IMG/VR virus record: IMGVR_UViG_3300047300_000479
Coordinates: 1-23,634 of that record
DNA from: a virus
Reading direction: 5' to 3' (one strand)
DNA length: 23,634 nucleotides
The notes below the pieces were generated by a model. The model saw nothing but the letters and a program-made list of their open reading frames with translations, was not told where the DNA came from and ran no database searches. Positions 8,507 to 23,634 of this stretch are shown in pieces (within the stretch, counting starts at the first letter, position 1; the number at the start of each line of letters is the position of its first letter). The translations under genes and the position numbers were made by a program.

Positions 8507-10390
8507 ATGCCAGCACCAGCCCCAGCACTGAACTACCTCTCCTCGCCTGTTCCTTATGTTGAAGTCTACCTGCCTGACTTGCAGCTGAAGAACCTCTACA
8601 CCTCGAACAGCACACCTACCATCAGCACAGGAAACCTGACTAACTACGGCACGGGTGGAACTGGTGCGTTGACCTTCTCAGCGACTGATGGCCCTGCAGC
8701 CTACGGTTTCTCTGCTTCATCTGGTTATGCCCGTATGACTTGGACGGCTATGCCTACGGCTGGCTATGTCGGCTTCTACCGCAACCAGACTTCAGGCCCT
8801 GCACTCGGAACACCTGGTGCTTCTTACACGCACAGCGTCTGGGTTCGTCCATCCATCGACTACTTTGCAGACCGCATCTACATTGAGTGGTTCAACGGCA
8901 CGACCTCCATCGGTATCACCTCCTATGCGACTGCCAGCCTTGTGGCAAACACTTGGCAACGAGTGAGCGTCTCTGGCGTTATGCCGGCTGGTGCCGACCG
9001 TGGACGCATGATTGTTTATACGACTGCGACCAATGGTTGGACTGCAGCTTCCATCGGTGCAACGCTTGACTTCTCTTCATGGCTTGCCGAGCAGACGACT
9101 GACCTGCACGACTACTACACAGGTAACTCGGGTTATGCACGCACTAACCTAGCGGTGAACCCGTCCTTCGAGGTGGACACTTCTGGTTGGACTGCTGGTT
9201 CTGGTGTTACGGTGGCTCGTTCCACTGCTCAGGCTTACACGGGTTCTGCTTCGGCTCTGGTCACCTGTGCGGCTGCGGCCTTCCAAGGCATCGCACAGTC
9301 TGCTCGCATCCCTGTGACCGCTGGTCTGGACTACACGTTCTCTGCCTACGTTCGTGACGTGAACACCGCCGTCACCTGGCGTGTGGCTGTGGTCTGGTAT
9401 AACGCACTCACTGGTGGAACAACTGTCGGCTCTACCGCAACAGGTGCCCCGACAACCATCAGCAGCTCAGCGTGGACTCGTCTTTCTGCGAACTACAACG
9501 TGCCCACTGGTGCAACTCACGCACTCATGTATGTCACGCCGACTGTCGCCCCAACGGCTGGAACGCAAGCCTATGTCGATGGTGTGCTGTTCGAGCAGAA
9601 GGCTGGTCTGTCGGCCTACTACACGGGCACTGTCGGTTCGAACTCTGCTCCCGACACCATCACCATCTATCGTCTGGTGGACGGTGAGACCTCCACAGTT
9701 CGCAACGCTAAGGCTGTAGCGAGTTCTACAGCGTTCACTGTGAACGACTTCGAGGCACCGTTCGGCAAGCCTGTCATCTACTGGGCTGAAACCTCGGCAT
9801 CGGGAACTTCTCTCGGCATAGGAGAGAAGGCAACGACCACGCTCAACGTCAACCAAGTGTGGATTCACGACCCGCTTGACCTGTCCAATGCTATGGCTAT
9901 CTCTTTGAGTGGCGACAATGATGCGACACTCGGACAAGGGTCGTTCAACTCTATTACCGAGGGCTATGACTACACTAGAAGCACCGTCCTTGGTAAGTCT
10001 CGCCCCGTCCTTCAGTTCTACGGGCAGAAGGCTATCGAGGGGTTGCAGTTCAAGGTAGTCACTAAGGCCGCTGGCAGTGATGAACTTGCAGACCTTCTCA
10101 GCGTCGCTCCTGTGCTTATCCGTGTGCCTGGTGCTCTCAGCAACCTGCCTCGTCTCATGTATGGAGTGCTGGAAGCGTCTCAGTCTCCGCTTGATTGGCA
10201 CGTGAACTCGACGAACCCTCTCACCGAGTGGTCTGTCACCTATAACGAGACCGAGCCTCAAAGCCTCGACATCGTGTTCACGTTCTACTCCTATGCCTAC
10301 TGGCAAGCCAAGTTCTCAACCTACGACGGTGCGAACACCTCCTATGGAGCGAGCACCTACGTCAACGCAGTGAGGAACCCTCCAGCCTAA
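8507..10390 (+). CDS. Minor tail protein with two lectin-like modules
   Basis: A 627-aa minor tail protein. Two jelly-roll-like, Ser/Thr/Gly-rich modules, each of carbohydrate-binding (CBM4_9-like) character, occupy about residues 40-205 and 206-375. Each ends in a YYTG motif (near 202 and 370), and the second opens with NLAVNPSFEVDTSGW. The C-terminal 250 residues contain QVWIHDPLDLSNAM and GKSRPVLQFYGQKAIEGLQF, the conserved core of an actinophage minor tail protein that has Dit-like features. AGGAG near 8492 precedes ATG 8507, directly after the tape measure stop. It probably sits at the tail tip and contacts cell-wall sugars. The modules are assigned by sequence character. Confidence 0.8.
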   Translation: MPAPAPALNYLSSPVPYVEVYLPDLQLKNLYTSNSTPTISTGNLTNYGTGGTGALTFSATDGPAAYGFSASSGYARMTWTAMPTAGYVGFYRNQTSGPALGTPGASYTHSVWVRPSIDYFADRIYIEWFNGTTSIGITSYATASLVANTWQRVSVSGVMPAGADRGRMIVYTTATNGWTAASIGATLDFSSWLAEQTTDLHDYYTGNSGYARTNLAVNPSFEVDTSGWTAGSGVTVARSTAQAYTGSASALVTCAAAAFQGIAQSARIPVTAGLDYTFSAYVRDVNTAVTWRVAVVWYNALTGGTTVGSTATGAPTTISSSAWTRLSANYNVPTGATHALMYVTPTVAPTAGTQAYVDGVLFEQKAGLSAYYTGTVGSNSAPDTITIYRLVDGETSTVRNAKAVASSTAFTVNDFEAPFGKPVIYWAETSASGTSLGIGEKATTTLNVNQVWIHDPLDLSNAMAISLSGDNDATLGQGSFNSITEGYDYTRSTVLGKSRPVLQFYGQKAIEGLQFKVVTKAAGSDELADLLSVAPVLIRVPGALSNLPRLMYGVLEASQSPLDWHVNSTNPLTEWSVTYNETEPQSLDIVFTFYSYAYWQAKFSTYDGANTSYGASTYVNAVRNPPA

Positions 10391-14401: not shown

Positions 14402-14656
14402 TCAGCCCTTCTTCTTGAGGTGTCTTGTCTTCGGAGTCGTCCGCAGCTGAGTGACTTCCATCCGCACTCGTGGCTTGCTGGGGAGGTCAACCTGCTCTGC
14501 GTGCTCCATGACCGAGAGGAGCGGTTCGGCGTGCTCGTCGCACAGGTCTATGCTCCACGCCTTCTGCTCGCCCTCACGCCACAGTCTGTAGGTGGTCGCT
14601 GGCTGACGGCAAGTTCCCTCGCCGTGGTCACACAGCAGGACGGTCTCTTTAGCCAT
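14402..14656 (-). CDS. 84-aa Cys/His protein, possible zinc finger
   Basis: Start ATG at 14654-14656 overlaps the end of the integrase gene (tATGgcTAA). The product begins MAKETVLLCDHGEG, and C9, C16, C39 and H42 in LLCDHGEGTC...DLCDEHAEP form a plausible zinc-binding set. The C-terminus is basic (RTTPKTRHLKKKG). I do not recognise a function. Position directly after int and before the 59-aa gene suggests an integration or excision accessory, DNA-binding role, or simple hitch-hiking. The frame continues upstream only as a shadow of integrase. Confidence 0.7.
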   Translation of the reverse strand: MAKETVLLCDHGEGTCRQPATTYRLWREGEQKAWSIDLCDEHAEPLLSVMEHAEQVDLPSKPRVRMEVTQLRTTPKTRHLKKKG

Positions 14657-15656
14657 ACGATTCACTCCGAATGGGCAGAATGTTCTCTCCCACAGAGAAC
14701 ATCGGCTTGCCAGCGAGTGCTTCGAGCACACGCCTCTGGTCAAGCGTGATACCCAGATAGCGTTCGGTTGTAACAGCGTTGCTGTGCCCTAGCAGAGTCT
14801 GCACCTGCCGAAGCGAGCCATCGTAGCCACTGCTCACTAGGTGGTCAAAGTAGGCTCGTGCACCAGACCGTCTCAAAGTGTGCTCTCCTTGACCCTTCTC
14901 GACCGTGTAGCCGGCACGCCTAAGCACCCTCTGAACGATGAGGTGTGGCTTGTGCACGGGTCGGTCGAGGTTCAGTGTGCCAGAGCCAGCGACCCACAGA
15001 CGTGTCACTGGGTCGGTGTGCAAGTCCTTGTTCCGTGCACAGATGAAGTGATGATGGCCTTGCAGCTCATGGCGTTCGGACAGGTAGGTGAGCCATCGTC
15101 TGACCTCTACCCCGAGTTCTGCCGAGACTGGCATCACCTGTGTGGTCTGGGTCTTGCGTCGCCATAGTTGGATGATGTTCTCGCTGAGTTTCACGTCCGC
15201 TATTCGCAGGTCTTGCTGTTCGGATGCACGCAGGAACAAATAGAGTCCCGTGGCTATCACGATGCGTTCTTGCGGATGTTGACAGGCGTTGAAAAGGCGA
15301 GGCCATTCAGCGTGAGGAATACGCAGGTGGTGCTTCTCTGGGACGGTTCTCTGTCTCCAGCCCGTCATCGGGTCGAGCATCGGGTTCATGAACTTGTTGG
15401 AGCGACACCAGCCGAAGAACGCCTTGTATTGCCCGATGCGGTTGTTCCGTGTGCCAGGTGCCCACGAGTGGGTGTTGAACAGCCTGTCGACGTGCTGGCT
15501 GGTGATGCTGTCGAGCATCAGGTCACCGATGGTGCGTTGCATGATGCGAAGCGACACCTGCTGACCTGTGATGGTCTTCGGTGCGAGGCCTCGAGCCGTG
15601 CAGTGTGCCTCGTAGCGTGCGGATGCTTCAGAGAGCCTGAGTCTCCTGCTTGCCAT
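14649..15656 (-). CDS. int: Tyrosine integrase
   Basis: I choose ATG 15656 (335 aa), with AGGGAG just upstream; a TTG at 15677 would add 7 residues. Catalytic residues of tyrosine recombinases are visible: R143 in LFLRASEQQDL, K168, H259-x-x-R262 in HTLRRSGAR, H291 in LLGHSNAVTTERYLG, and Y300. N-terminal residues 1-95 (core-binding SAM-like domain) include ARYEAHCTARGLAPKTITG. The enzyme would integrate the genome by attP x attB recombination, so the phage is temperate. No separate arm-binding domain is obvious before residue 10. It is transcribed leftward, divergent from the HTH gene. Confidence 0.93.
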   Translation of the reverse strand: MASRRLRLSEASARYEAHCTARGLAPKTITGQQVSLRIMQRTIGDLMLDSITSQHVDRLFNTHSWAPGTRNNRIGQYKAFFGWCRSNKFMNPMLDPMTGWRQRTVPEKHHLRIPHAEWPRLFNACQHPQERIVIATGLYLFLRASEQQDLRIADVKLSENIIQLWRRKTQTTQVMPVSAELGVEVRRWLTYLSERHELQGHHHFICARNKDLHTDPVTRLWVAGSGTLNLDRPVHKPHLIVQRVLRRAGYTVEKGQGEHTLRRSGARAYFDHLVSSGYDGSLRQVQTLLGHSNAVTTERYLGITLDQRRVLEALAGKPMFSVGENILPIRSESYG

Positions 15657-15692
15657 GGTCTCCCTCGGTCTCGGCAATGCAGGATGACACTA

Positions 15693-18291: not shown

Positions 18292-18873
18292 GTGAACATC
18301 CATCTCGAACCGTCCGAACTCAAGACTGCGGAGAGGGTCGCTTCTCGTATCGGCTCCAAGTGGTCTGCGGTCGAGGTGGACGACCTGACCTCTCATCTCT
18401 ACCTCTGGCTGGTTCAGAACGTCGCAGCTGTGACTCGTTGGCGTTCTGAGCCGGCTGGGGAGGGCAAGTTGTATGTCTCCCTTCGTCGGGAGGCCGCTAA
18501 GTATTGTGCCCGTGAACAGGCTGCACGAGTGGGTCAGCCTATCTCCAGGGTGGACTTCTACACGACGGAACGTGTGAAGCGTGCCTTGCCTTACATCTTT
18601 GAGGAGACCCCTGAGACGCTGGTGACGGAGAATCCTGTGACTGGTGAGCCACAGTTCATCCCGAACGAGCATGGGGTTGCTCAGTCCATCCTTGCTGACC
18701 TTCGTGGGTCGTTCTACGGCCTCAACCGTGAGGTTCAGAAGGTGTTGGCTTGGCGGTTCCGTGACGGGCTGTCGTTTGAGGAGATTGGCGAGCTGCAGAA
18801 CATCACGAAGGACGGGGCGAAGAAGCAGGTTGACCGTGCTGTTCAGCGTCTCGTCGATTCATTGGAAGGTTGA
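18292..18873 (+). CDS. Sigma factor-like protein
   Basis: GTG 18292 (ribosome site AGGAG at 18282-18286) starts a 193-aa protein directly after the phosphoesterase stop. Residues 158-192 read LSFEEIGELQNITKDGAKKQVDRAVQRLVDSL, matching sigma region 4 (SFEEIA..LG.T..AVK...RA...L). The N-terminal half (VEVDDLTSHLYLWLVQ...LYVSLRREAAKYCAR) resembles a degenerate region 2. ECF-type sigma factors direct RNA polymerase to phage late promoters, which could include the late operon whose start lies outside this window. A role in switching transcription is inferred. Confidence 0.75.
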   Translation: MNIHLEPSELKTAERVASRIGSKWSAVEVDDLTSHLYLWLVQNVAAVTRWRSEPAGEGKLYVSLRREAAKYCAREQAARVGQPISRVDFYTTERVKRALPYIFEETPETLVTENPVTGEPQFIPNEHGVAQSILADLRGSFYGLNREVQKVLAWRFRDGLSFEEIGELQNITKDGAKKQVDRAVQRLVDSLEG

Positions 18874-18877
18874 AGTT

Positions 18878-19150
18878 ATGAGCGAGAATCTGGCTCAAGC
18901 GTTGCGTCTGTTGCGTGACGAATCACTTGTGTGGTCGGCAGACTTCGAAGCCGTCAGACAGCCTCTGGCGGACTTACTGACGCTGTTGGAGCAAACACCC
19001 AGCCATCAGTTTGACGAGGCTGTGTCAGCCATTGTGGAGCGTCTGGAGACCCCTTCAGCGACCGTCTCCGACCCGATGGAGTCTTGGCTGGTTGCCGTGA
19101 AGGGCAAGAACGCAGCTGAGGCTCTCAAAAACCTCTTCTCCTCGCTGTAG
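18878..19150 (+). CDS. Hypothetical helical protein (90 aa)
   Basis: ATG 18878 begins MSENLAQALRLLRDESLVWSADFEAVRQPLADLLTLLEQTPSH, an acidic helical protein ending AAEALKNLFSSL. The frame runs further upstream to 18644 but only in the shadow of the sigma gene. Not recognised; the leucine heptads suggest a coiled interaction helix. Its last 26 nt overlap the 3' end of the leftward whiB gene. It shares a rightward unit with the sigma-like gene (4 nt gap), so partner or anti-sigma roles are possible but unsupported. Confidence 0.6.
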   Translation: MSENLAQALRLLRDESLVWSADFEAVRQPLADLLTLLEQTPSHQFDEAVSAIVERLETPSATVSDPMESWLVAVKGKNAAEALKNLFSSL

Positions 19151-19496
19151 GACTGCTCACTGGGGTAAAGCGTTTACGCCCGACCATCAGGGCACGCTCG
19201 CCAGCAGTGGTGCCTCCCCAGATGTTCCACACTTCATGCTCTAGTGCGTATTCGAGGCATTGCTGGATGAGTGGGCAGGACTGGCAGAGGGACTTGGCGT
19301 TGCGGACTGCCTCCCAGTAGTCGGGCTCTCCGTAGTCAATGTCATAAGCGTCGGGATAGTTCGTGCACGGCACAGGCTCGGGGAGTTCATCGGCCGCACG
19401 GTAGAGAGCCTTCAACTCGGGGTGTATCTCGAAGGTTGCAAAGAACTCGGTTGGGTTGCTTTGTTCTACAACTCTGTCTTCTTCGTTGTCTGTCAT
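19125..19496 (-). CDS. WhiB-family Fe-S regulator
   Basis: The leftward ORF starts ATG at 19494-19496 and gives 123 aa. The four WhiB cysteines are C44, C71, C74 and C80 (C-x2-C-x5-C at 71-80), followed by W93 in NIWGGTTAGER (residues 91-101), the conserved G(V/I)W-G-G motif, and a basic tail SPTARRRGF. WhiB proteins bind a 4Fe-4S cluster and the sigma-A region 4 to tune host and phage transcription. It occurs only in actinobacteria and their phages, the best taxonomic marker here. A sigma-like gene lies close by. It overlaps the 18878 gene by 26 nt, tail to tail. Confidence 0.92.
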   Translation of the reverse strand: MTDNEEDRVVEQSNPTEFFATFEIHPELKALYRAADELPEPVPCTNYPDAYDIDYGEPDYWEAVRNAKSLCQSCPLIQQCLEYALEHEVWNIWGGTTAGERALMVGRKRFTPVSSPTARRRGF

Positions 19497-19563
19497 TCCG
19501 TGCCGTTCAATGTCCGTGGTTCTAACTAATCTGGAATCACTCTAAAACATAAACCTGACGAAA

Positions 19564-19598
19564 CACGAAAACCCGAACCAGCCGGCTCGGGTCTCGTG
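19564..19598 (+). promoter_or_regulatory. Hairpin in whiB-exonuclease intergenic region
   Basis: Between divergent whiB and the exonuclease gene, CACGA (19564-19568) and ACCCGA (19571-19576) pair with TCGGGT (19587-19592) and TCGTG (19594-19598), an 11-bp stem broken by small internal loops. It would lie in the 5' leader of the exonuclease message. The preceding AT-rich stretch (about 19520-19560) is the probable divergent promoter region. Only weak -10-like boxes such as TAAAAC are seen. Confidence 0.5.
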
Positions 19599-19625
19599 GG
19601 CCATCAGGAGAAGGGAAGAAACCCA

Positions 19626-20528
19626 ATGACTAAGACAAGTGTATCTGCTGTTCTGGACAGCATCGGCTCTGCACGCTATGAGGGAACGTTCGAGAACGGT
19701 TCTCCTGAATGGCACGCACAGAGGGCTAAGGGTATTGGCGGTTCGGATGTTGGCACGATTGTGGGTTGTAACCCGTGGCAGTCTGCCTACACTCTTGCAG
19801 CTGTTCGCCTCGGCAAGATTGACTCCAATGTTCCTGCTTCGGAAGCGATGGAGTGGGGCACCAGGTTGGAGCCTGTCGTGCTGGACAAGTTTGAAGAGTC
19901 GCACCCTGAACTTGAGGTGTTCCGTGAGGTTGGCTCGTGGAGGCACGAAGAGCGTGAGTGGCAACTGGCGAACCCTGATGGGCTGTTCCGTGACTCAGCC
20001 GGCAACTGGGGTGTGATTGAGGTCAAGACCGCACGCTATGAGGATGACTGGAAGGACGGGGTGCCTGTCTACTACCGCACTCAGGTGCAGTGGTATCTCC
20101 AGACGTTCGGCTTTGGGCGTGCCATCGTCGTGGCCTTGTTCTCAGGCTCCAAGTATCGAGAGTTTGAGGTGCTCGCTGACAAGTTCGAGCAGGACACGAA
20201 CCTTGCAGCTGTAGTCGAGTGGAAGAATGTTGTGGACGCTGGTGAACTACCTGAGTTCTCTGCACCGTTCATCTCGACCCTGACGACCACTCGTGAGATG
20301 CACCCAGAGATTGACTCTGATGCCCAAGTTGAACTCGGTCAACTGGGTATCTACTACTTCCTTGCCGAGCAGGACTTCAAACAGGCTGAGAGCCACTTCA
20401 ACGAGATGAAGGCTCGGGTCACTGAAGAGATGGGGACTGCCAAGCGTGGCCTCGTCAATGGCGACTGGTTACTGACTCGTCAGAGCCGTAACGGTGGCAC
20501 CCCTTACCTAGTTAGCAAGAGAGGATAG
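19626..20528 (+). CDS. YqaJ-like recombination exonuclease
   Basis: I choose ATG 19626 (MTKTSVSAVLDSIGS); a GTG at 19596 would add 10 weak residues. The 300-aa protein has the YqaJ viral recombinase signature: W29 with R33 and GIGGSDVGTIVG (36-47), E77, NPDG (117-120), VIEVKT (131-136) and YYRTQVQWYLQTF near 150-162. D119, E133 and K135 fit the PD-(D/E)xK core. It chews 5' ends of double-stranded DNA for single-strand annealing, like lambda exonuclease. The next gene likely encodes its partner, as in Red-type pairs. Confidence 0.88.
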   Translation: MTKTSVSAVLDSIGSARYEGTFENGSPEWHAQRAKGIGGSDVGTIVGCNPWQSAYTLAAVRLGKIDSNVPASEAMEWGTRLEPVVLDKFEESHPELEVFREVGSWRHEEREWQLANPDGLFRDSAGNWGVIEVKTARYEDDWKDGVPVYYRTQVQWYLQTFGFGRAIVVALFSGSKYREFEVLADKFEQDTNLAAVVEWKNVVDAGELPEFSAPFISTLTTTREMHPEIDSDAQVELGQLGIYYFLAEQDFKQAESHFNEMKARVTEEMGTAKRGLVNGDWLLTRQSRNGGTPYLVSKRG

Positions 20529-20532
20529 CAAC

Positions 20533-21090
20533 ATGGCACAGACATTCAACCTTCAGGACTACGAGACCGTTGAGGAGAGGCTTCGTCGGCTGTATGACCA
20601 GCACCCTGATGCTCGGGTCATCACGAAGAACCTGACGACGCTTCAAGACCGCCAGGTGTCGACGTGGGTGGTTCAGGCTGAGGTGTGGCTCCCGATTACC
20701 GACTTCAAGTTTCTGGCAGAGCAGTCACCTGCGAGTGGCTTCGTCGAGACTCCCAACGACCTGTGGATTCTGAAGGCGACAGGCATGGCCTTCGAGGTGG
20801 ACGGCTCTGGCATGACTCAGCGTGCGAACGCTCTAGAGACCTGTGAGACCTCCGCTATCGGGCGTGCCCTCGCCAACATGAACCTCTCGGGCAACAGGCG
20901 TGCCTCTCGCACCGAGATGGAGAAGGCACAGCGTGGCGTGACTCCGAAGGCTCCCCGTGACTGGGAGAAGGAGATAGCCGGCTTGAAGAACGTCGAGGCT
21001 GCTCGGAAACTCTACAACGAGGCTCGAACCGCATCGGCACCTAATGAGGTGTTGGACGCTATCAAGGCGAAGGTCGCCACCTTTGCATGA
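20533..21090 (+). CDS. Probable single-strand annealing / recombination partner
   Basis: At 185 aa, this begins MAQTFNLQDYETVEERLRRLYDQHPDARVITKNL and contains NALETCETSAIGRALANMNLSGNRRASRTEMEKA in the middle. ETSAIGRALA within a Rossmann-less, mixed fold, adjacent to a YqaJ exonuclease, fits phage annealing proteins of the ERF/Rad52-like class, but the motif is not exclusive and I cannot assign the fold. The C-terminal third is helical (EKEIAGLKNVEAARKLYNEARTA). AGAGAGG precedes ATG 20533, 4 nt after the exonuclease stop. Alternative: a replisome accessory. Confidence 0.5.
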   Translation: MAQTFNLQDYETVEERLRRLYDQHPDARVITKNLTTLQDRQVSTWVVQAEVWLPITDFKFLAEQSPASGFVETPNDLWILKATGMAFEVDGSGMTQRANALETCETSAIGRALANMNLSGNRRASRTEMEKAQRGVTPKAPRDWEKEIAGLKNVEAARKLYNEARTASAPNEVLDAIKAKVATFA

Positions 21091-21271
21091 CCTTCAGCAT
21101 GACAGGCAGATTCTGCTTGCAGCTGTGAACGACCTGCTGTCTCTGTCGGAAACGATGGAGCACAGAACTGACCTGTTGCTAGTTCGTCGAGCCATCGTGA
21201 TTGAGGCCTCCCGTATTGCGAACAGGCTCCTTGAAGTGCAGAAGAAGATAGAGGAACTCGACCTTGATTGA
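21083..21271 (+). CDS. Hypothetical 62-aa helical protein
   Basis: The most economical start is TTG 21083 (MHDLQHDRQILLAAVNDLLSL), overlapping the previous stop by 8 nt. An ATG at 21044 lies deeper in the preceding gene and gives a basic shadow-like N-terminus. The product is entirely helical with Leu, Arg and Glu, ending LEVQKKIEELDLD. Not recognised. The next gene starts 8 nt before its stop, so three small genes here are tightly packed. Confidence 0.5.
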   Translation: MHDLQHDRQILLAAVNDLLSLSETMEHRTDLLLVRRAIVIEASRIANRLLEVQKKIEELDLD

Positions 21272-21614
21272 ATACCCGTTGGACGTAATACGTGAACTGT
21301 CATCCCTTCGACAACAGGCTGAGAAGGGTGTGCAGGTTCTTGCCGAGGCTGAAGCCAAGCAGGTGCAACTGACTCTCGCAGCTGAACGTGAGGAGGCTCT
21401 TGCATTCTTGGAGGCTCAGGGCACTGTCGCTGACCGTCAGGCTGTTGCGAAGTTGGCGAGCATCAGTGCTCGTGAGGCCGCTGAACTCGCCAAGGTTGAG
21501 GTCAACCGTATCAAGACGAAGTTGAAGCAACTGTCTGAGGCTCAAATGGCTGTGCAGACTTCTGGTCGCATGGTTGAGCTGCAATGGAAGACCGCTGGGG
21601 TCGGTGAACGGTAA
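21264..21614 (+). CDS. Coiled-coil protein (116 aa)
   Basis: TTG 21264 starts MIEYPLDVIRELSSLRQQAEKGV, then a long helix EAEAKQVQLTLAAEREEALAFLEAQGTVADRQAVAKLASISAREAAELAKVEVNRIKTKLKQLSEAQMAVQTS. The pattern FLEA-GTVADRQA...A...A..A.V...K..L...L is shared by small proteins common in actinophage replication regions; no function is known to me. Its position beside recombination genes suggests a replication accessory. The last 11 nt overlap the HNH gene. Confidence 0.65.
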   Translation: MIEYPLDVIRELSSLRQQAEKGVQVLAEAEAKQVQLTLAAEREEALAFLEAQGTVADRQAVAKLASISAREAAELAKVEVNRIKTKLKQLSEAQMAVQTSGRMVELQWKTAGVGER

Positions 21615-21933
21615 GCAGTTCGCCAGGTTCCTTGAACGGGACGGTGGCTGTCTTCACTGTGGCGAGGTGGAGGCTGTCGCACCGAACCATCGGGTGAACC
21701 GTGGCATGGGTGGCTCTAAGACTCGTGACGTGCCAAGCAACATTGTTGTGCTGTGTTCTCTGCTCAACGGTCAGATTGAGGCCGATGCACGTTGGGCGAG
21801 GGTCGCTAAGTCTTACGGCTGGAAGTTGGAGAGTTGGCAAAGTCCTGTGAGTGAGCCTGTGTATAACTCGCTAACTGGCGAGTGGAGACTTCTTGACGAT
21901 GATTGGGGTTACAAAGTAGTTGAAGGGAACTAA
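21604..21933 (+). CDS. HNH endonuclease
   Basis: GTG 21604 gives 109 aa (TTG 21574 would add ten residues). Two metal cysteine knuckles flank the site: C16-L-H-C19 and C51. N28-H29-R with RGMGGS, N46 and N55 in LLNGQIEADARWARVAKSYGW form the HNH (here H-N-N) nuclease core. Sequences of this exact form are common in actinophages, where they either assist recombination and packaging or act as free-standing homing nucleases. Its location between recombination and replication genes favours a housekeeping role, but mobility is possible. Confidence 0.85.
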   Translation: MNGKQFARFLERDGGCLHCGEVEAVAPNHRVNRGMGGSKTRDVPSNIVVLCSLLNGQIEADARWARVAKSYGWKLESWQSPVSEPVYNSLTGEWRLLDDDWGYKVVEGN

Positions 21934-22772
21934 TGAACCAACCAGGCATCTATCGTGGAGCGTTGCCGTTCGAGCAGGGCTTCACACGCATTCCGAACCA
22001 TTGGCTGAGAGATAGCCGTCTAGGGTTCCGAGCCAAAGGCCTCCTCGCCTACCTCCTGTCACATGAAGTCGGCTACACCATCACGCTGGGGCAGATTAGC
22101 CGAGAGACGAACGACGGTCGGCACGCCATCCGTGCAGCTATCGACGAACTAGCCTCTGCCGGCTACCTACGCACTGAACGCACCCATGACGAACGGGGTT
22201 GGAACGCTGGACTGGCATGGTTCCTTCAAGACCCTAATCCAAAGTCTGAAAATCCAACTTTGGAAAATCCAACGTTGGAAAATCAGACCGCATTAGAAGA
22301 ACACTTTATAGAGAAGAACACTAAACAAGAAACTTCTCTTCAAGCAGGGCTTGAAGCAGGTTGGGAAGAGTTCTGGAACATCTACCCTCGCAAGCAGGAG
22401 AAGAAGGCCGCAAGGGCTTCGTTCGTGAAGGCGTTGAAGCAGGTCTCGCTTGACGAGTTGCTTGCTGGTGCTCGTCGCTATGCAGCTGACCCGAACCGTG
22501 CCAAGGAGTTCACGAAACTGCCAGCAACGTGGTTGAACCGTGGCTGTTGGGATGACGAGCCGTTGCCTCCTCGCACTCTGACTCCTGAACAGCGTGAGGC
22601 GAAGTTGCTTCAGGAACGTGAGGCTCGTTGGGCTCGGGAGCGTGCGGAGCAGGAGCGTCGCCGTGAAGAACTGAAGGCCGAGGAGGAGCGTCTTCGTCGT
22701 GACCGTGAAGAGAATCCGATTGAACGTTGTGTGCATGGACGGGTGAAGGTCATCTGTCCTCGCTGTTCATAA
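21933..22772 (+). CDS. Replication initiator, HTH protein with internal iterons
   Basis: ATG 21933 overlaps the previous stop as TAATG. Residues 16-83 (TRIPNHWLRDSRLGFRAKGLLAYLLSHEVGYTITLGQISRETNDGRHAIRAAIDELASAGYLRTER) are a winged helix typical of phage replication initiators and DnaD-type proteins. A linker about 95-130 contains ENPTLENPTLENQ, encoded by a 15-bp iteron array. A second domain near 143-210 (EEFWNIYPRKQEKKAARASFVKAL) resembles a helicase-loading region, then a charged coiled tail, and C266/H268/C275/C278 suggest a final zinc site. The product would bind the origin inside its own gene, as lambda O does. Confidence 0.8.
   Translation: MNQPGIYRGALPFEQGFTRIPNHWLRDSRLGFRAKGLLAYLLSHEVGYTITLGQISRETNDGRHAIRAAIDELASAGYLRTERTHDERGWNAGLAWFLQDPNPKSENPTLENPTLENQTALEEHFIEKNTKQETSLQAGLEAGWEEFWNIYPRKQEKKAARASFVKALKQVSLDELLAGARRYAADPNRAKEFTKLPATWLNRGCWDDEPLPPRTLTPEQREAKLLQEREARWARERAEQERRREELKAEEERLRRDREENPIERCVHGRVKVICPRCS
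22248..22284 (+). repeat. 15-bp iterons, putative replication origin
   Basis: GAAAATCCAACTTTG (22248-22262) and GAAAATCCAACGTTG (22263-22277) match at 14 of 15 and are directly adjacent. A partial third copy GAAAATC (22278-22284) follows, and a degenerate one may precede (22233-22247, 8 of 15). The whole sits in an unusually AT-rich stretch that continues to about 22330. A 5-bp inverted repeat GTCTG/CAGAC flanks it (22244-22248, 22284-22288). The pattern resembles origins with iterons in the initiator gene. Confidence 0.6.
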
Positions 22773-22796
22773 ATAGGTGTCCGCAGGAATCGTTAC

Positions 22797-22805
22797 TGTG
22801 GATAA
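22797..22805 (-). promoter_or_regulatory. Perfect DnaA box
   Basis: TGTGGATAA on the + strand is the complement of TTATCCACA, the consensus bacterial DnaA box. It lies 24 nt after the replication initiator stop, in an 81-nt gap. I saw no other exact 9-mer in the window. It supports a host DnaA contribution to replication, or host control of the SSB gene. Confidence 0.6.
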
Positions 22806-22822
22806 CAAGTGCTCACCACTTG
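22806..22822. repeat. Inverted repeat next to DnaA box
   Basis: CAAGTG (22806-22811) and CACTTG (22817-22822) are separated by CTCAC, and the repeat begins at the base after the DnaA box. It could be an operator for the SSB gene, a hairpin in its leader, or part of the origin. Confidence 0.45.
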
Positions 22823-22853
22823 GCGTGAGACCCAATAGAGAAAGAAGAAGTAA

Positions 22854-23219
22854 ATGGCTATCAAGGTTGAGTTCGAGGGCTGGGTCAATGACCGTGCCGT
22901 GTTCGACTGGGGAACCGTGTTGAAGGTGACTCACGACCAGCGTGCTAAGAACGCAGCTGGCGAGTGGGAAACTGTCGGCAAGGATTACATCGACGTGACT
23001 GTGACTCCTGACCAGGCTCGTGCTGTGGCCTCGGCGAAGGTTGTCAAGGTCTCTGGTTCGTTGAAGGTCGGCACGTATGACAAGCGTGACGGTTCGAAGG
23101 GTGTTTCGTTGAAGGTGCGTGCCACTGATGTTGCACCTGTTGAGCGAGGCTTCAAGGCTGACCCTGTGTCTGTCGTGAAGAGCGTTCTGGCTCCTGAGTC
23201 GGAAGAGTTGCCGTTCTAA
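22854..23219 (+). CDS. ssb: Single-stranded DNA-binding protein
   Basis: The 121-aa protein starts MAIKVEFEGWVNDRAVFDWGTVLKVTHDQRAK, continues WETVGKDYIDVTVTPDQARAV and SLKVGTYDKRDGSKGVSLKVRATDV, all strand-rich in OB-fold order. The acidic C-terminus PESEELPF has the ..PF tip that SSB proteins use to bind partners. It is shorter than bacterial SSB (about 170 aa), typical for phage. GAAAGAAG at about 22840-22847 precedes ATG 22854. It would protect single strands during replication and recombination beside the neighbouring exonuclease, initiator and RusA genes. Confidence 0.8.
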   Translation: MAIKVEFEGWVNDRAVFDWGTVLKVTHDQRAKNAAGEWETVGKDYIDVTVTPDQARAVASAKVVKVSGSLKVGTYDKRDGSKGVSLKVRATDVAPVERGFKADPVSVVKSVLAPESEELPF

Positions 23220-23374
23220 TGGCTCAGGCAGGGTTCGCCTATCTGGTCGCTATTCTATTGCTGGCTAACAGCGTGAATGGCGTTCCTGCATGGTTGCAGA
23301 TTACCGATGTTGTTGTTGCTGTCTACTTCGCTGTTGTGGGGTCGATTGCCGGCTGGCTTGCAGCTCGTGACTAG
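23219..23374 (+). CDS. 51-aa membrane peptide
   Basis: ATG 23219 overlaps the SSB stop (TAATG) and gives a protein beginning MAQAGFAYLVAILLLANSVNG and ending VYFAVVGSIAGWLAARD. Two hydrophobic helices (about 5-17 and 30-49) are joined by a short VPAWLQITD turn. Not recognised; small two-helix peptides in phages can be anti-host membrane factors or superinfection exclusion proteins, but nothing here proves that. It overlaps the RusA start by 8 nt, so it is likely co-translated. Confidence 0.65.
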   Translation: MAQAGFAYLVAILLLANSVNGVPAWLQITDVVVAVYFAVVGSIAGWLAARD

Positions 23375-23634
23375 ACAACTCTCGTTCGTAGCGTTCGGAA
23401 CCCCCAGACCGCAGGGTTCTAAACGTTACGTTGGCAATGGACGGTTCGTCGAGGCTTCTGACGTGAAGCCTTGGCGAGCGTCTGTTGCTGATGCGGCCTT
23501 CAAGGCTATGAGTGCGAACGACTCTGAACCGTTCGATGTTCCTGTTGTGGTTGAGGTTGTGTTCTTCATGCCTCGCCCTAAGTCGGTCAAGCGTGAATGG
23601 CCTCAGACGATGCCCGACACGGACAAGTTGTGTC
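23367..23634 (+). CDS. RusA-type Holliday junction resolvase (partial)
   Basis: GTG 23367 starts MTRQLSFVAFGTPRPQGSKRYVG, and 89 complete codons are in the window; the end is cut off. The FG-P-PQGSKR start, VKPWR (33-37), VVVEVVFFMPRPKS (60-73) and PDTDKL (83-88) with D84 and D86 are typical RusA features, where paired aspartates bind the catalytic metal. RusA cuts four-way junctions formed during recombination-dependent replication, in keeping with the exonuclease and annealing genes. It overlaps the 51-aa gene. The resolvase call is safe, while its C-terminal half is unseen. Confidence 0.88.
   Translation, partial: MTRQLSFVAFGTPRPQGSKRYVGNGRFVEASDVKPWRASVADAAFKAMSANDSEPFDVPVVVEVVFFMPRPKSVKREWPQTMPDTDKLC

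Follow-up and report, generated by a model that had tools for sequence, protein, structure and literature searches.

A putative phage replication origin in the linker-coding part of an initiator gene

Origins located inside initiator genes

That a replication origin can lie within the gene of its own initiator is an established principle, as lambda, SPP1 and pSK41 show. In the parts of the published accounts drawn on here, the O gene of lambdoid phages carries iterons and an AT-rich tract in its middle, and synonymous disruption of these iterons was carried out (PMC7466680). In the same way, gene 38 of SPP1 contains oriL with direct repeats and an AT-rich unwinding element, a second origin, oriR, being located elsewhere (PMC6316719), and rep of pSK41 holds four central Rep boxes that are bound by the N-domain of the protein, the linker encoded there being dispensable (PMC5703833). 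In work on RepA from extrachromosomal prophages of mycobacteria, the authors suspect that an origin lies in repA or upstream of it, and in the sections drawn on they report finding no repeated motifs where they looked (PMC7157519).

The locus described here would add one case. It is found in a virus record of 23,634 bases (IMGVR_UViG_3300047300_000479), the whole of which was analysed and is called the window. The gene concerned (22233-22330 being the part first pointed out) occupies positions 21933-22772 on the + strand and codes for 279 aa. The preliminary description had taken it for a replication initiator, and the PHROG_270 profile 'replication initiation protein' bears this out with a match over residues 13-252, most of the protein (E 2e-34). 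Pfam returned HTH_36 only, below cut-off (E 7.7e-4), NCBIfam gave weak unrelated matches only, and a profile search of PDB sequences with the first initiator alignment found no match. The lambda-O type Pfam family was matched neither by the window protein (E <= 0.1) nor by 27 aligned relatives (E <= 1), the RepA_N Pfam domain was likewise found in none of them, and the 'O-like' PHROG families gave weak matches to the window initiator (E 2.8e-5 and 1.7e-4). By sequence the protein thus stands outside lambda O and RepA_N; it would work like them, yet is filed as PHROG_270.

In-gene origins are a functional kind rather than a homology family, and two of their features, an array between the N- and C-domains and an adjoining AT-rich stretch, are present in the window. 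With lambda O, as far as the account drawn on describes it, the window gene has in common iterons and an AT-rich tract located centrally in the coding sequence, two full units being present in the window; the window unit, at 15 bp, is a difference. In-gene repeats with an AT-rich stretch are also shared with SPP1; gp38, like the mycobacterial prophage RepA, is set beside the window protein by description and not by sequence, in each case from part of the published account.

An AlphaFold2 model of the initiator (m0a852a920cfb; mean pLDDT 82.5, pTM 0.37) comprises a winged-helix N-domain (about residues 30-98), a linker, a helical C-domain (about 140-205), a long helix (218-260) and a tail containing Cys and His. 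Residues 105-133, encoded by the array together with some of the A-rich stretch, have a pLDDT below 50. The best structural match of the N-domain was Geobacillus DnaB 5wtn (Z 10.5, rmsd 2.8, 94 aligned). It also aligned with 4pt7, 'Structure of initiator' (Z 8.7, rmsd 3.4, 87 aligned), 5kbj, 'Structure of Rep-DNA complex' (Z 8.0, rmsd 4.0, 90 aligned), and 2v79 DnaD (Z 7.8, rmsd 4.0, 93 aligned), at values that unrelated winged helices reach too (about 8). Both 4pt7 and 5kbj are presumably pSK41-type Rep; the likeness to pSK41 Rep lies in the in-gene array and perhaps in the fold of the N-domain. Foldseek returned nothing at E <= 0.001. Of note, the C-terminus (22728-22769) encodes a CxH...CxxC-like tail, RCVHGRVKVICPRC, which is kept in several near relatives, is modelled by AlphaFold2 as two short strands and is possibly a zinc-binding finger.

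The neighbours of the initiator fit an early replication and recombination module. They include a YqaJ/RecE-like exonuclease (19596-20528) and an HNH-like gene (21574-21933), both from Pfam/PHROG matches, and, next downstream, an SSB-like gene (22854-23219, + strand; Pfam SSB E 6.8e-4, below cut-off, and PHROG_44 E 4.2e-4). No helicase or loader gene was identified in the window. Further away, a sigma-factor-like gene was observed at 18292-18873 (PHROG_354 E 6e-14, Pfam sigma-70 region 4 just under cut-off), and an ORF on the opposite strand (19125-19496, - strand) lies among + strand genes with a Cys pattern that we take to be WhiB-like in look. A tyrosine-type integrase (14649-15677, - strand; Pfam Phage_integrase E 5e-11) indicates that the phage is probably temperate. 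A DNA-level search of window positions 19500-23634 against phage records found no match.

The repeat array and its A-rich flank

Two full 15-bp repeats, a partial third and a degenerate leading copy had been described within the gene, and Tandem Repeats Finder recovered this arrangement at 22236-22284 (period 15, 3.3 copies, score 70), the top of its five rows for the window. The degenerate leading unit AATCCAAAGTCTGAA (22236-22250), identical in its letters in the relative L001, is followed by two full units, AATCCAACTTTGGAA (22251-22265) and AATCCAACGTTGGAA (22266-22280), both also located by exact-site search, and by the partial unit AATC (22281-22284), all on the + strand. Translation yields the array peptide ENPTLENPTLENQ, as claimed. 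In addition, each full unit is palindromic, a property absent from the earlier remarks: the core of unit 1, TCCAACTTTGGA (22253-22264), deviates by one mismatch from its own reverse complement pattern, and the core of unit 2, TCCAACGTTGGA (22268-22279), is a perfect palindrome. Without mismatch, TCCAACNTTGGA occurs at 22253 and 22268 only in all 23,634 bases, and no further exact site was found elsewhere in the window, possibly an incomplete genome. When up to 3 mismatches were allowed, 77 window matches were counted against 51.8 expected, a count of little meaning at such looseness. Another short 15-bp tandem repeat was seen at 8598-8629, in gene 8507-10390 (2.2 copies, score 43).

The codons of the array are unusual for this genome. 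The repeat score of the initiator gene was matched by 2 of 200 synonymous shuffles, and, with the codon usage of 18 other window genes as reference, the exact codons of ENPTLENPTLEN have a joint probability of 2.8e-9. These genes favour GAG, AAC, CCT and CTN; the array has GAA, AAT, CCA and TTG. Among 200,000 random back-translations, 101 contained two CCAANNTTGG sites and 9,436 at least one.

The stretch had also been called visibly AT-rich compared with its neighbours, and this held: positions 22235-22334, with 34% GC, are the minimum among the 100-bp stretches of the 23.6 kb record, the next separate one having 41%, and codons 102-134 contain 34.3% GC, whereas synonymous shuffles average 44.8%, none of 2000 being as low. 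In these lowest 100 bp the array is joined by an A-rich stretch (22285-22334, + strand), the candidate unwinding element. Taken alone, the A-rich stretch (codons 118-134) is modestly unusual in its GC content, 37 of 2000 shuffles being as low. Across the family, only 71 of 109 members had a linker with less GC than the remaining gene, the mean difference being 0.031.

Positions 22236-22334, inside the linker-coding part of the initiator gene, are very probably the replication origin of the phage, binding and initiation being what we infer. The steps proposed are modelled on lambda, SPP1 and pSK41, as far as the accounts drawn on describe them. Winged-helix N-domains, probably as dimers, would bind the 15-bp palindromic units, of which the window has two full ones only; their complex on the array would melt the adjoining A-rich stretch, and the C-domain would recruit a helicase or primosome. 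Palindromes to which winged-helix proteins bind are a common form of operator, and the repeats might be initiator sites that mainly regulate the gene, as an operator or transcription roadblock, rather than the start of replication. Such a role is unlikely as the main one: the array lies about 300 bp into the gene and adjoins the lowest-GC stretch of the record, linker arrays recur across relatives, and in-gene arrays are origins in lambda-type phages, SPP1 and pSK41, in the parts of their accounts drawn on.

Arrays in related initiators

Arrays of different sequence were found where the window array sits. In the RepO of phiPsal1, a Pontimonas phage (L003) and a named relative (PHROG_270 E 5.8e-45), 15-bp palindromic repeats are present at the corresponding place, but with a different unit, TTCCACTGTGGAnnn (array TTCCACTGTGGA), and a different peptide. 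Among relatives from protein-based searches, other units at the same gene position were TCCACTGTGGCTCAn in L080-L088 and GCACTGTGGCnnnnn in L090-L104; GACGGGTTCCCGnnn-like units were found there in L077-L079, and AATCCAACCCTCGCA in L075 and L076.

Tandem repetition was examined in 37 initiators chosen by protein, namely the window, 17 of 37 distinct proteins from the relative search and 19 from 363 phage records. In 30 of the 37, no more than 10 of 200 synonymous shuffles attained the tandem-repeat score; the seven that failed were L095, L251, L253, L256, L258, L263 and L266. The best period was not a multiple of 3 in five of the 37, all with none of 200 shuffles reaching the score: 11 bp in Arthrobacter KHumphrey and in Oenococcus Krappator149, 16 bp in Mycobacterium Purky, 22 bp in Arthrobacter Kepler and 32 bp in Paracoccus Pyei1. 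In a broader comparison, a repeat score of at least 15 was observed in 43 ORFs of an initiator-like set of 56, and in 13 of 225 control ORFs 180-330 aa long. The 56 include loci fetched for their repeat, which makes the shuffle test on the 37 the cleaner one; the 225 controls include an ORF (L250 at 1384) that overlaps the Aleemily initiator with equal score and period, as well as some long repetitive proteins.

A common 15-bp grammar was observed in a larger set of 112 initiators, which were left from 228 proteins after removal of near-duplicates and drew on the best 80 of 241 and the best 80 of 505 relatives. Two of the three seed alignments were taken from repeat-pattern matches, so the set is biased to array-bearing clades. 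The pattern CC-N6-GG-N5-CC-N6-GG was present in the linker of 82 of these deduplicated initiators, against 29.9 expected from synonymous shuffles, and absent in 30. The CC of the motif falls at codon position 1 in 67 of the 82 arrays and at position 2 in 15, and N6 is self-complementary over 1.45 pairs, compared with 0.83 in shuffles (largest null mean 0.99). Separate pattern scans, one with at least 120 matches, also hit many unrelated genes, for example pentapeptide-type repeats and tail-like proteins; because of this impurity no taxonomic share is claimed. In several Clostridia genomes (L107, L109, L115, L119, L124, L133, L143 and others), HTH proteins have long DLPTLENPTLDNPTLEKPTQ-type linkers that rest on the same DNA unit, some of them perhaps within integrative elements.

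The C-domain that follows the linker is not always the same. Initiator-type PHROG matches were obtained for all of L005, L018, L048, L053, L090, L133 and L003. The C-domain is of FWxxYPRK type in the window, of DnaB_2/DnaD type in L018, of DnaT type at cut-off in L090 (DnaT being matched by 7 of 27 aligned relatives at E <= 1) and DUF6017 in L133, so that one kind of winged helix with an array-bearing linker is paired with at least four C-domains.

The array may also covary with residues of the winged helix. Where the D61 position, at the start of the recognition helix, is acidic, a CC-N6-GG array was present in 79 of 95 initiators, and where it is not, in 3 of 17. Ranked by z for array presence, D61 came first among the winged-helix columns scored (13.1), R33 second and H64 third; in raw mutual information R33 and H64 stood above D61. 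N91, R83 and W90 were the columns with the highest z for the first N6 base. These statistics ignore ancestry and the alignment is uncertain for the most distant members; the covariation itself is suggestive at most, and consistent with binding by the N-domain.

Finally, the motif is not confined to initiator genes. In two syntenic virus contigs of 63 and 66 kb it occurs twice, about 9 and 10 kb apart: once in the gene (L005:1351-1375; L048:3531-3555, where L048 covers the tail of the initiator only) and once between the same two neighbouring genes (L054:1056-1080; L012:8637-8661), where nothing but short mechanical ORFs (64 and 57 aa) crosses it. In the second contig, TCCAACCTTGGA is the unit of both arrays. 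The unit thus also exists in non-coding DNA, and the intergenic array is a candidate second origin, in one conserved arrangement seen in two contigs. The pairing resembles oriL and oriR of SPP1, as given in the part of that account drawn on; the window has one exact-site array.

It is an evenly balanced proposition that these proteins form one set of winged-helix initiators, spread over actinophages, Firmicutes phages and mobile elements, in which a linker origin, the CC-N6-GG-N5 grammar in several frames and with a partly self-complementary N6, at least four C-domains and a specificity go together, array type and N6 core covarying with residues of the recognition helix and the wing. The origin and its specificity might then be predicted for very many uncultured elements from their initiator gene. 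No paper on such a family-wide 15-bp grammar was found in the literature searched, in which few subscription journals were covered.

Conservation of the linker DNA and its meaning

The array is conserved at the level of codons. In the relative L001 (IMG/VR), whose initiator is 61% identical to the window protein in the best tblastn segment, the array comprises 15 consecutive codons (45 bp) identical to those of the window, the next longest run in the gene being 4. Over residues 100-118 the two genes share the codon at 16 of 17 identical degenerate residues, against 78 of 150 elsewhere (Fisher p 5.7e-4). The comparison was extended to the window plus 14 members of its clade, picked from 37 distinct proteins for sharing its array type. 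In the repeat units of these 15 sequences, pairs of codons for the same residue are identical in 1008 of 1080 cases (93%), against about 43% in the winged helix (3060/7143), the C-domain (931/2089) and the tail (310/742); the A-rich flank (residues 118-133) reached 677/854 and the rest of the linker 185/289. The units differ synonymously 72 times, always at the third base of Thr codons, which is the palindrome centre. The GAA/GAT (Glu/Asp) difference in the spacer is non-synonymous.

This pattern points to a binding site and not to a peptide. The repeat might be a feature of the protein, an ENPTL linker kept for flexibility or protein contact with the DNA repeat as a secondary effect; members of the window clade strongly conserve the linker peptide, 67 of the 82 arrays keep one frame, and in shuffled sets a CC-N6-GG array arises from the peptide alone in about 30 of 112. 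This was put aside as very improbable in view of the codon identity of the units, the exact-codon probability, the shuffles, the second frame in 15 of 82 arrays and the periods indivisible by 3 in five of 37 initiators; moreover, the unit is also present in intergenic arrays, and the linker is the low-confidence part of the structure model. That the repeat is a recent, functionless product of slippage, as the varying copy number between relatives might suggest, is barely credible and was rejected on the codon conservation of the units, preserved across the 15 sequences, and on the 45-bp block intact in L001 despite the divergence of the remaining gene.

Judged by comparison of sequences, the letters of the linker DNA are themselves shown to be constrained, both by this codon conservation and by the arrays of other sequence, frame and period in relatives. 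The linker peptide, modelled there with low confidence, would need to do little more than stay open and flexible. The proposal of the preliminary description, that iterons inside the gene may be bound by its product as in lambda O, is therefore supported, with a function that we infer: the repeat DNA is conserved beyond its peptide, relatives carry arrays of different sequence, period and frame at the same place, and the array recurs between genes in two syntenic contigs. Near relatives conserve the peptide too, which leaves it room for a role beside that of the iterons.

If the wider reading is true, the origins of many uncultured phages and integrative elements would be readable from one gene, with the binding unit, the spacing and the unwinding stretch all coming from the initiator gene alone. 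It would also be a clear example of coding DNA with a second function, and would offer ready-made shuttle origins where hosts have no vectors. The more interesting part is the 15-bp grammar shared by actinophage and Firmicutes elements, along with a possible specificity rule; winged-helix residues set against the core of the unit would then yield testable rules of origin specificity.
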